This document shows, in pieces, positions 55,202 to 58,265 of a stretch of 64,000 nt of DNA. Made by a program: the position numbers and the translations under genes. Under the pieces are notes generated by a model. That model worked only from the letters and a program-made list of their open reading frames with translations. It searched no databases and was not told the DNA's origin. The DNA is taken from assembly GCF_000657795.2 (NCBI RefSeq), contig NZ_JHEP02000009.1, forward strand, positions 1 through 64,000. Direction: 5' to 3'. The stretch's first letter is position 1; every line of letters starts with the position of its first letter. The stretch is from Bordetella pseudohinzii. GTDB taxonomy: Bacteria; Pseudomonadota; Gammaproteobacteria; Burkholderiales; Burkholderiaceae_B.

Positions 55202-55926
55202 GCACGCCCTTGCTTGCGGTGCGCGGGCTCGATGCCTGGTATGGCGCGGCCCACATTCTTTTCGGCGTCGACCTGGAGGTCGGCCGCGGCGAAGTCGTGG
55301 CCCTGATGGGGCGCAATGGCGCGGGCAAGTCCACCACGATCAAGAGCATCATGGGCCTGGTGGCGCGGCGGCGCGGCGAGCTGCGTTTCATGGGCCGGGA
55401 TATCGCGTCGCTCGCGCCCTATGAGGTGGCGCGCCTGGGCCTGGGCTATGTGCCCGAGGACAGGCGTATTTTCACGGAGCTGAGCGTGGCCGAGAACCTT
55501 GACATGGGCCGTCAGCCGCCGCGCCGCTGGCCGGACGGCAGCGAGGCGCCGAATTGGCGGCCGCAGGACCTCTATGCCTTGTTTCCCAATCTGGGCGCCA
55601 TGCCGCAGCGGCCGGGCGGACAGATGAGCGGCGGCGAACAGCAGATGCTGGCGGTGGCGCGCACCTTGATGGGCAATCCCTATCTGGTGCTGCTGGATGA
55701 GCCCTCGGAAGGGGTGGCGCCGCTTATTGTCGAGCAGATGGCGCGGATGATCCTGCGCCTGAAGGCCCTGGGCGCGAGCATTCTGCTGTCGGAGCAGAAC
55801 CTGCATTTTGCCGCCCTGGTGGCCGACCGCGCCTATGTGCTTGAAAAAGGCCAGATCCGCTTCCAGGGCAGCATGGGCGGGCTGATCGCCGACGAGGCCG
55901 CGCGGCGCGCCTATCTGAGCGTGTGA
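55198..55926 (+). CDS. LivF-type ABC ATPase
   Basis: A 242-residue ATPase. Walker A GRNGAGKST is near residue 38, GLGYVPEDRRIF follows near 81, the signature is MSGGEQQMLAVARTL and Walker B VLLDEPSEGVAP. The region after YVPEDRR has a short insertion with PPRRWPDGSEAPNW. It ends the operon and abuts the convergent yddG stop (1 base between). No terminator hairpin is evident. Confidence 0.92.
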   Translation: MSTPLLAVRGLDAWYGAAHILFGVDLEVGRGEVVALMGRNGAGKSTTIKSIMGLVARRRGELRFMGRDIASLAPYEVARLGLGYVPEDRRIFTELSVAENLDMGRQPPRRWPDGSEAPNWRPQDLYALFPNLGAMPQRPGGQMSGGEQQMLAVARTLMGNPYLVLLDEPSEGVAPLIVEQMARMILRLKALGASILLSEQNLHFAALVADRAYVLEKGQIRFQGSMGGLIADEAARRAYLSV

Positions 55927-55927
55927 C

Positions 55928-56836
55928 TCAGGCGCGCGCCCGCGTGGCCTGCCAGCACACCAGCGAGCCCAGCGTCACCATGGCCACGCCCTGCCAGAAG
56001 GCCGCGCCGGGCTGTTGCCGCAGCCAGACGGCGGCCAGGAGCGCCGAGAGCACGGGCGTGAAGTATGAGGCCGCGGCCAGAAAGGCCATATTGCCTTTCT
56101 GTATGCCGTGGTTCCAGCAGCTATAGCCCGTGGCCACCAGCGCGCCCAGGACCAGCACTTGCCCGGCCGCGCCCGGATGGGCGGCCAGGGCATCAAGCAC
56201 ATGGGCCTCGGCGCTCAGGCCATGTTGTATCCACAATAGCGTGGCGGTGGCCAGCAGGAATAGCGCCACGCCGTTTTCGCCGCGCCCGTAGCGGCGCGTG
56301 AGCACGGAATAAGCGGCCCACAGGCCGGCGGCCGCGAAAGCCAGGCCGTAGGCCAGCGGGTTGCCCGCGATATGGGCCTGCAGGCGGCCCAGCGACAAGA
56401 CCTGGCCATCGCCGGTGATCCAGACGATGCCCAGAAAGGACAGCGCGGCGCCCGGCCACAGCAGCCAGTTGCCGCGCGCCTGGCGCGCCAGCACGGCCAC
56501 GACGATGGTCAGGCTGGGCCAGAGATAGTTGATCATGCCCAGTTCCAGCGATTCGGCCCGGGTATGCGCCAGGCCGATGGCCAGCGCCAGGCAGATTTCA
56601 TAGGCGGCAAAGAGGGCGCCGCAGCCATAGAGATAGGCGGGATGAAAGCGCGAGAGGGCGGGCAGACCGCGCACCAGGCAGACCAGCAGGGCACTGACGG
56701 TGAACAGGCAGGCGGCGCCGCCTGCCGGACCCAGGGCTTCGGAAATGCTGCGTATCAGGCCGACGGCGGCGCTCCAGCAGACAATGGCGAGCAGGCCGAT
56801 GGCCGTGGCCCTGGACGGCGGGGAAGAGGAAGGCAA
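55928..56836 (-). CDS. yddG: Aromatic amino-acid exporter of the DMT family (YddG-like)
   Basis: A membrane protein of about 302 residues with ten hydrophobic segments. ATAIGLLAIVCWSAAVGLIRS, then EALGPAGGAA near the N-terminus, and NYLWPSLTIV and YSCWNHGIQKGNMAFL later, match E. coli YddG, which exports aromatic amino acids and paraquat. The start is uncertain: no ATG lies close to the conserved N-terminus. A TTG at 56836 gives the YddG-like length, and a TTG at 56887 would add 17 residues. Confidence 0.8.
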   Translation of the reverse strand: MPSSSPPSRATAIGLLAIVCWSAAVGLIRSISEALGPAGGAACLFTVSALLVCLVRGLPALSRFHPAYLYGCGALFAAYEICLALAIGLAHTRAESLELGMINYLWPSLTIVVAVLARQARGNWLLWPGAALSFLGIVWITGDGQVLSLGRLQAHIAGNPLAYGLAFAAAGLWAAYSVLTRRYGRGENGVALFLLATATLLWIQHGLSAEAHVLDALAAHPGAAGQVLVLGALVATGYSCWNHGIQKGNMAFLAAASYFTPVLSALLAAVWLRQQPGAAFWQGVAMVTLGSLVCWQATRARA

Positions 56837-56885
56837 GAGACGACTCGGTATACCAGGCAAGCGCGCATGGTAAAGCACATCGCCC

Positions 56886-56917
56886 AAAAAGAAACGCCGG
56901 CGGAGGAGCCGGCGTTT
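56886..56917 (-). terminator. Terminator of the DUF4148 transcript
   Basis: AAACGCCGGC (56892-56901) pairs perfectly with GCCGGCGTTT (56908-56917) around a 6-base loop. On the minus strand the stem is followed by TTTCTTTTT. It ends the transcript that carries the hairpin repeats at 56940-57047. Confidence 0.85.
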
Positions 56918-56939
56918 CCGGCCGGAACCTGTCCGGCCA

Positions 56940-57047
56940 AGGCCGATGTTCTGGCCTCTTGCTGCGCTGGACCGATGCTCTGGTCCAGGTACTGCGCGAG
57001 CCGATGCTCTGGCTCGCTACTGCAACTGCATCGCGCGTGGCTCGCGC
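56940..57047 (-). repeat. Tandem 29-nt stem-loop repeats in the 3' region of the DUF4148 gene
   Basis: Three stem-loops repeat with loops at 56945-56952, 56974-56981 and 57003-57010, exactly 29 bases apart. The 8-base loop is GATGTTCT, GATGCTCT and GATGCTCT (AGAGCATC in the transcript). The stems are 5, 7 and 7 bp and perfect: AGGCC/GGCCT, CTGGACC/GGTCCAG, GCGAGCC/GGCTCGC. Three stem positions differ between copies and each change is compensated on the other arm. A fourth, degenerate copy (57018-57047) keeps TACTGC and TGGCTCGC. The array lies between the DUF4148 stop and its terminator. Confidence 0.85.
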
Positions 57048-57054
57048 TGACTGC

Positions 57055-57384
57055 TTAGTTGGCGTGGGGCGGGTAGTCCAGATCGCCGAAGGTGTATTCA
57101 CCATTCGCCTTGGCGCGGGCCAGCTCGTCCTTGACTTGTTGGCGCGTCTTGCCGGAGGTGCTCACGGCCGTGACGGGCGGGTAGTCGTTTTCGCCGAAGG
57201 TGTATTGGCCGTTGGCCTTGGCCTGGGCCAGGTCTTCTTTCACCTGGGCGCTGCTCTTGGCCTGGTCTTGCTGGCCGTAGACGCCCTGGAAGGGGACGTT
57301 GTTGGGCTCGATGTTCTGCGAGGCATAGGCGCCGGCGCTCAGCACGGCCATGGACATCAACAGGGCGGAAGTCAGGGTTTTCAT
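57055..57384 (-). CDS. DUF4148 domain secreted protein
   Basis: A 109-residue protein. The signal peptide (about 1-21) ends GAYASQ. Two copies of the DUF4148 motif follow: VKEDLAQAKANGQYTFGEND-type at about 48-70 and VKDELARAKANGEYTFGDLD-type at about 83-105, each ending YPP. Such small periplasmic proteins are common in Bordetella, Burkholderia and relatives; their role is unknown. AAAGGAAA precedes the ATG. The 3' untranslated region carries the tandem hairpins. Confidence 0.9.
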   Translation of the reverse strand: MKTLTSALLMSMAVLSAGAYASQNIEPNNVPFQGVYGQQDQAKSSAQVKEDLAQAKANGQYTFGENDYPPVTAVSTSGKTRQQVKDELARAKANGEYTFGDLDYPPHAN

Positions 57385-57869
57385 AGCGGTTTCCTTTAGG
57401 TCTAGGTTCCTGGGAGCGGACCTGGCGGAGCTACCGTCAAAGTTCGTTTTTGTTTCCCAATGACTGCATTGTGCGCCTGCATTGATCTAGGATAAACCCG
57501 GTAATCCTGAAAAGATTATTCCATTTATCGATGTAATAAATGACAGAAAACGCTATTGACCTAATAGTAATGGAATTGGACCCCGGGCTTTCAAGGGGAC
57601 ACATCTTGGTCCATTGTGCTCGGTCGAGACGGCCCGTCAACATGGATTCGTTTTCGAACAAAAACGCGCTTATTCGCGGAGTTCCTTCGGTTCGGGGCGG
57701 CTCGGACGCCGGTCTTCCGGTTTTCGGGCCGCCTATGGCATAGTGGGGCGTATCCCTGGGTAACACGCTGGTTCCTGGGTGGCCGCGCCCTGGCGCCGGC
57801 CGCCCCTCGCGGGCCGGGTCACCGGCCTATCCGTTTCCGCCCCGGAAACGTTCATAGAGGGAGGTCCAC
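57385..57869. other. Intergenic region between divergent small-protein genes
   Basis: This 485-base gap separates the minus-strand DUF4148 gene from the plus-strand gene at 57870. The segment 57425-57600 is A+T-rich and probably contains the DUF4148 promoter; the segment 57770-57850 is GC-rich. A 109-codon minus-strand frame at 57437-57766 has no ribosome site or family look and I do not call it. No clear promoter pair was found. Confidence 0.5.
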
Positions 57870-58265
57870 ATGCACAAACGAATGCAATGCTGGCTGGCGG
57901 CCGCTTGCCTGGCCGCGGCATTGGGGCCGGCGCAGGCGCAGATCGCCACGCCGGCCGCGCCCGCCAAACCGGCGCCGCGCAGCGCCATCGTGGTCGATGG
58001 CAATGGCTGGCTGGCGGCTTCCGACCTGGAGCGGCGCGCCTTTCTGGTGGGCGTGGCCAATATGATCGTGGCCGAGAACGCCTATGCCAAGCGGCGCAAG
58101 CTGGACGAACCCGGAGCGGCCAAGGCGATTACCGAGGCGCTTAGCGGCATGAATCTCTGGCAGTGGAGCGAGCGGGTGAGCGCCTGGTACCGTGCCCATC
58201 CGGACAAGCTGTCCACGCCGGTCATGGGCGTCATCTGGCGCGACATCGTCAAGCAGGCTCGTTGA
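57870..58265 (+). CDS. Small periplasmic protein, possibly Rap1a/Tai-like
   Basis: A 131-residue protein. The signal peptide (about 1-23) ends GPAQAQ, followed by a Pro/Ala-rich stretch. The mature part, from GNGWLAASDLERRAFLVGVA to WYRAHPDKLSTPVMGVIWRDIV, has the helix pattern of Rap1a-type proteins (FLVGVA, then HPD and a final helix) but lacks their disulfide cysteines. That likeness is only suggestive. GAGGGAGGT precedes the ATG. The lipoprotein gene follows after 16 bases, so the two form one transcript. Confidence 0.75.
   Translation: MHKRMQCWLAAACLAAALGPAQAQIATPAAPAKPAPRSAIVVDGNGWLAASDLERRAFLVGVANMIVAENAYAKRRKLDEPGAAKAITEALSGMNLWQWSERVSAWYRAHPDKLSTPVMGVIWRDIVKQAR

Follow-up and report, generated by a model that had tools for sequence, protein, structure and literature searches.

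CsrB/RsmY-type decoys repeat a constant loop on variable stems, with GGA in the loops, and REP/BIME elements are strong palindromes found at the 3′ ends of transcripts in many dispersed copies. The distal face of Hfq targets runs of ARN repeats, and the loops of the CcsR/CIN1 'cuckoo' RNAs are CU-rich. According to the accessible part of one report, several related RNAs of this kind in alphaproteobacteria (CcsR1-4 and CIN1) lie in tandem behind a small-protein gene, with one terminator (PMC10253847). A tandem, variable-number, GC-rich repeat with a unit of 75–91 bp, termed BRE, has been described from Bordetella intergenic regions (Hot et al. 2011, PMC3110155, accessible part), and the sRNA CT_533 of B. 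pertussis is derived from the 3′ UTR of bp2374 (PMC12235514, accessible part).

Here we describe three tandem hairpins in the 3′ untranslated region (UTR) of a DUF4148 gene of Bordetella pseudohinzii, located in a stretch of 64,000 nucleotides that was analysed as a whole (hereafter, the window). In layout, the array is closest to the CcsR/CIN1 RNAs as the available text presents them, consisting of related hairpins in tandem between a small-protein gene and a terminator; however, the upstream gene there encodes a DUF1127 protein and here only a DUF4148 protein, the units of the array are 29 nt, and the loops are CU-rich there but AGARCAUC in the array. The constant loop repeated on variable stems recalls the CsrB/RsmY decoys, but the array loops lack GGA, and the array lies in a 3′ UTR rather than in a separate sRNA. 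Strong palindromes at a transcript 3′ end are shared with REP/BIME, from which the array differs in its single locus, its constant loop and the lack of dispersed copies at E ≤ 0.01 in its own genome. The array and BRE, as characterized in the accessible text, are both tandem GC-rich repeats in Bordetella intergenic DNA, but BRE is dispersed over the genome whereas the array occurs at one locus. The likeness to CT_533, as far as its source goes, is that of an RNA from a 3′ UTR, processing of the array transcript being putative.

A search of Rfam 15 with window positions 55900–58000 returned six matches up to E = 5, all under the gathering score, and the accessible portions of PMC11722255 (on S17) and PMC8386462 (on RNase III and E) contain no mention of an array element. 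The original prediction knew of no described element of such a form, which is in line with the outcome for Rfam and with a search of the literature, mostly outside subscription journals. BRE was compared through a BRE-like repeat adjoining lexA, the place published in the accessible text, and not through the published BRE sequence. This repeat (genome G007, L152 888–1031) has an 82-nt spacing and a sequence unlike that of the array, and a search of the same genome with the array UTR gave no match, so that the array was rejected as a BRE. CRISPR was rejected because the loop is constant, the arms differ and there are no spacers. An ARN array for Hfq was likewise dismissed, as ARN runs are not enriched in the array UTR (the counts of ARN2 and ARN3 were reached by 136 and 80 of 200 shuffles, respectively). 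Hfq is present, and ARN runs are enriched in four or five Achromobacter arrays, with no clear enrichment in the arrays of Bordetella DUF4148 genes.

Organization of the array locus

The host mRNA of the array is that of a 109-aa DUF4148 protein encoded by an ORF on the minus strand (57055..57384; Pfam PF13663, 74.9 bits), whose TAA stop codon was read at 57057–57055. Three perfect hairpins with loops exactly 29 nt apart had been predicted between this stop codon and the terminator, and their number, spacing and place are borne out by the minus-strand sequence. Hairpin 1 (57017–56996, GCGAGCC-AGAGCATC-GGCTCGC) and hairpin 2 (56988–56967, CTGGACC-AGAGCATC-GGTCCAG) have 7-bp stems and the RNA loop AGAGCAUC, and hairpin 3 (56958–56939, GAGGCC-AGAACATC-GGCCTT) has a 6-bp stem including one G-U pair and the RNA loop AGAACAUC. 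They are perfect only with G-U allowed, since the third stem, taken strictly, ends in a G-U pair. A decayed fourth copy, also predicted, is a weak claim: the 5′ flank contains a further GCGAGCC arm and is able to form a 5-bp hairpin, but no AGARCATC loop is present in it, and by a count made by hand it is spaced 28 nt from copy 1 here versus 22 nt in B. hinzii LMG 13501, the nearest named relative found (DUF4148 protein 96% identical). A coding role of the array was rejected because the hairpins follow the stop codon; by eye, the repeat arrays of relatives keep no frame either (e.g. L201, with a 16-nt period and TAG codons).

On the same strand, the array is followed by hairpin 4 (56938–56920), which has a different loop and provides an internal contrast, its stem being kept between species and its loop not, and then by a strong intrinsic terminator (56919–56886) with the loop UCCUCC and a U run. 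The terminator is absent from the output of a simple terminator scan. Its loop (56902–56907) resembles an anti-Shine-Dalgarno sequence and reads CCCUCC in B. genomosp. 12. Three GCAGU elements precede the array (57019..57054), and the linkers hold a fourth GCAGU (56991–56995) and a GCAGC (56961–56965), all on the minus strand. The downstream ORF on this strand encodes an EamA-family transporter (55928..56887); the TTG codon listed as its start overlaps with the terminator end, and the true start is probably further inside.

A putative promoter, the promoter-like block TGGAATAATC ... GGGTTTATCC (57490..57523, minus strand), is common to DUF4148 genes. Among 15 aligned DUF4148 genes of Bordetella and Achromobacter, this block is strongly conserved and is accompanied by a conserved leader, CACAATGCAGTCATTGGGAAACA (together 57385–57523 on the minus strand of the window), which looks like the mark of a shared sigma factor or regulator.

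Folding of the UTR

The 173-nt 3′ UTR including the terminator has a folding z-score of −6.3, a value reached by none of 200 shuffles. In a 464-kb sample of the same genome (the window plus 400 kb of one contig; the genome comprises 4.54 Mb in 48 contigs), the array UTR ranked at the top of 119 runs of at least three hairpins, with 40 pairs in five hairpins, hairpin 4 and the terminator being counted; seven runs have five hairpins, and the next best run has 37 pairs. By the number of perfect hairpins within 260 nt past the stop codon, it was just 20th of 70 DUF4148-gene UTRs (z = 3.2, 40 shuffles), a modest rank because terminators and other stems score well too. The three matches to the core 12-mer CCAGARCATCGG in the window (at most one mismatch) are a count reached by 9 of 100 shuffles. 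The case for the array is its regular spacing and compensation, not the number of hairpins.

Compensatory changes in the stems

Twelve units from four species, 11 of them distinct, were aligned, and five of the seven stem pairs are altered on both sides. In total, 72 of 77 cells (93.5%) are paired, and the five unpaired cells all fall in the outermost pair. The six inner pairs (66 cells) are Watson-Crick or G-U throughout, with four G-U and no unpaired cells, and just two cells are changed on one side only, both being G-U. In copy 2, for example, two species have U-A and A-U pairs, a third has C-G and G-C, and the fourth has C-G with G-U. The copies hold their positions across the four species, and the structure is conserved by compensation. 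The covariation score was 0.613 versus 0.255 in shuffles (reached by 0/500), with slid-partner controls at 0.143 or below, whereas two of the five covariation measures were unexceptional (both-side pairs reached by 32/500 shuffles and pair types by 119/500), and all such significance is overstated because the units and sequences are related and shuffling does not remove this relatedness. When the whole UTR was aligned across the four species, both-side changes were confined to 4 of the 45 predicted pairs, with a covariation term of −0.38.

The original prediction attributed the pattern to selection on RNA or cruciform structure. The RNA alternative is favoured, because G-U forms a pair in RNA and a mismatch in DNA, and a DNA cruciform is less likely given the G-U pairs in the stems.

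Conservation of the loops

The AGARCAUC loop sits on a CC/GG neck, which is invariant except for one U-G, and all array loops have this sequence but one, AGAGCAAC; in copy 1 of B. hinzii, a loop base is changed. Among the four species, 3 of 24 loop columns are variable, compared with 47 of 109 third codon positions of the DUF4148 gene (one-sided Fisher test, p = 0.003) and 303 of 898 EamA columns (p = 0.019), in a small loop sample whose 24 columns come from three related, non-independent copies. In the stem arms, 11 of 42 columns are variable. For the adjacent hairpin 4, the six pairwise comparisons of species give 1, 3 or 4 differences over the five loop sites. These data support the view that the array loop may have a use. 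With the compensation between copies and among the four species and the G-U pairs in the stems, loops steadier than third codon positions also lend support to the original proposal of selection on structure plus loop. Folding suggested possible additional pairing within the loop around a bulged A in seven of eight folded units (A3-U7 at 17–25% and G2-C8 at 23–33%), as against 0% and 4%, respectively, in B. hinzii copy 1. In the array's own genome, AGARCATCGG occurs 27 times, versus nine times for the reversed control.

Distribution of the array

A covariance-model search, suggested along with the original prediction, found three strong unit matches at one locus in each of 4 of 15 Bordetella genomes, namely the genome analysed here, B. 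hinzii LMG 13501, B. genomosp. 12 and G014. No tandem unit matches were found by the model in the other 11, including the two incomplete genomes G008 and G012. When 61 genomes were searched at the DNA level with the UTR, four matched, the array's own included, and a plasmid search with the array locus gave no match. In the own genome, the three unit matches at E ≤ 0.01 all belong to the array, and three further weak ones reach up to E = 0.1. Among 200 genomes of the family, a set that included the own genome and B. hinzii and left out B. genomosp. 12 and G014, 87 had a unit-model match at E ≤ 0.1 under stricter filters, and outside the two array genomes no side-by-side pair was present among the matches listed.

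Of 13 single model matches inspected, seven lie inside open frames of at least 150 aa on the matched strand, two look intergenic (L157 and L159) and four are undecided; single matches in other genomes were taken as chance. L159 (G177, another genus) is a lone hairpin with an exact CCAGAGCATCGG core between an rpsU-like stop codon (named by eye) and a terminator, and it is probably also due to chance. A single copy of CCAGARCATCGG is uninformative because the 12-mer is found singly in 15/15 Bordetella genomes. A phage origin was rejected: one viral contig fits the double pattern, but by eye it is coding-like with a repeated motif and no hairpin context. Judged from these sequences, the AGARCATC array is limited to one clade and is one version of an apparently fast-changing 3′ UTR feature.

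GCAGU repeats and the 3′ UTRs of related genes

The 3′ UTRs of DUF4148 genes differ widely among relatives. With the terminator counted, 11 hairpins with several loops lie between stop codon and terminator in B. genomosp. 5, and four and two hairpins, respectively, follow two such genes of B. genomosp. 1; the B. trematum UTR has the terminator alone. Indels holding GCAG units separate the UTR of the own genome from that of B. hinzii. The recurring element is GCAGU: the UTR in the window contains four copies versus a shuffle mean of 0.5, and none of 200 shuffles reached four. In 18 of 20 tested UTRs the GCAGU count was reached by at most 2 of 200 shuffles, in a selected set that left out array-less relatives (e.g. 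G001, G002 and G007), whose Achromobacter members except L041 were chosen for having arrays, and in which the enrichment is circular for five UTRs of a second gene (in G003, G006, G009, G010 and G011) found via GCAGT clusters. The 464-kb sample contained two clusters of at least three GCAGT with gaps of at most 30 nt, and that of the array UTR, with four, is the larger. Over the 15 genomes, triple GCAGT clusters are rarer than those of the reversed control (134 versus 231 matches). The distinctive feature is dense, irregular GCAGT arrays at particular loci, not genome-wide frequency.

In Achromobacter (41 genomes searched, 39 with a match), six of 30 inspected loci have at least four GCAGT in the 3′ UTR, together with GAAGT and GTA repeats, and 16 have a terminator run 55 nt past the stop codon and no GCAGT. 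Hexamer and triplet arrays also occur in the Achromobacter DUF4148 3′ UTRs. Four of these UTRs (L188, L187, L181 and L201) carry long simple repeats, such as (GTA)n, before a second terminator; upstream of the repeats is a stem that resembles a first terminator but has an interrupted U tract. Perfect 15-bp tandem repeats starting GCAGTCAG were seen elsewhere in B. hinzii (L244, contig C2) and in the own genome (C2 1–50 and C9 83304–83368); they are crossed by several open frames in B. hinzii, and contig C2 of the own genome ends with one of the copies.

The second gene with such UTRs encodes a 77-aa protein that matched no Pfam family at E ≤ 0.001. GCAGT arrays follow its stop codon in six of the 21 loci listed, of which five are from Bordetella genomes and one is from a different genus (L249, L250, L251, L257, L260 and L263), and are absent in the species of the window. 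Its 3′ UTRs in the own genome (contig C23, L253) and two relatives (L252 and L254) hold large hairpins, one of which has a long C/U-rich, anti-Shine-Dalgarno-like loop.

Possible roles of the array

We tentatively propose, with a probability of about 0.42, that the 3′ UTR of the DUF4148 mRNA is a putative multivalent structured binding site, acting as a decoy or a 3′-UTR-derived RNA and also protecting the 3′ end. We infer transcription, processing, a partner and an effect of the array along the following lines. Three short hairpins would present the same 8-nt AGARCAUC loop, the sequence of the stems being irrelevant, and a trans-acting RNA-binding protein or RNA would read the loop, probably along with the GCAGU linkers. 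A decoy or docking platform would then be provided by the mRNA 3′ end itself or by a cleaved-off fragment ending at the terminator, and the stems may additionally shield the mRNA 3′ end. A partner that reads the loop is favoured because a constant loop and neck are set on freely covarying stems, whereas a pure exonuclease barrier would be indifferent to the loop. A deeply conserved reader of AGARCAUC is not expected, because the loop is confined to 4 of 15 Bordetella genomes, with different loops present in other species.

That indifference bears on a REP-like stabilizer of the mRNA 3′ end, in which strong stems block 3′–5′ exonucleases and loops and linkers are incidental. Stable stems ahead of a terminator are the feature in common, and relatives have strong hairpins with different loops (counting terminators, 11 in B. 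genomosp. 5 and four behind one gene of B. genomosp. 1), so this explanation is conceivable, if doubtful; it accounts neither for the GCAGU enrichment nor for a loop less variable than third positions and than the hairpin 4 loop, and B. trematum has the terminator alone. The growth and shrinkage of the UTR, seen in the GCAG indels relative to B. hinzii and in the hexamer and triplet arrays of Achromobacter, and the many relatives without arrays would suit a functionless, mutational origin, in which tandem duplication and quasi-palindrome template switching make and repair hairpins in a slippage-prone 3′ UTR. Template switching should, however, give Watson-Crick arms, whereas G-U accounts for 4 of the 66 inner cells and for both one-sided changes; the loops are also steadier than third positions and the copies keep their positions across four species, which makes this origin decidedly unlikely. 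More improbable still is a sponge or target of one specific sRNA pairing with AGARCAUC, whose seed would be GAUGUUCU-like if R pairs with U. Such pairing would survive the exchange of G and A found at the fourth loop position of several copies, but the own-genome homologue of RF02278 (the toxic sRNA/S17 type) shows no such sequence by eye; S17/toxic sRNA was rejected as the partner, no complementarity being visible by eye in this one homologue.

Beyond the multivalent binding site proposed for the DUF4148 mRNA, the arrays might belong to a class of multivalent 3′ UTRs, undescribed and quick to evolve, that small-protein mRNAs (those of DUF4148 and the 77-aa gene) carry in Bordetella and Achromobacter, and in which arrays of GCAGU elements and of constant-loop hairpins would be repeatedly rebuilt in varying forms for a shared factor, the AGARCAUC triple being one clade's version; we regard this broader reading as rather unlikely. 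The locus illustrates, on a small scale, an RNA structure that compensatory change maintains both among tandem copies and from species to species, and it comes from a respiratory genus in which post-transcriptional control is being studied. In the GCAGU arrays that recur, there is a specific signature by which a missing RNA-binding partner could be tested for, and these arrays also show a way in which multivalent 3′ UTRs may originate and be replaced.
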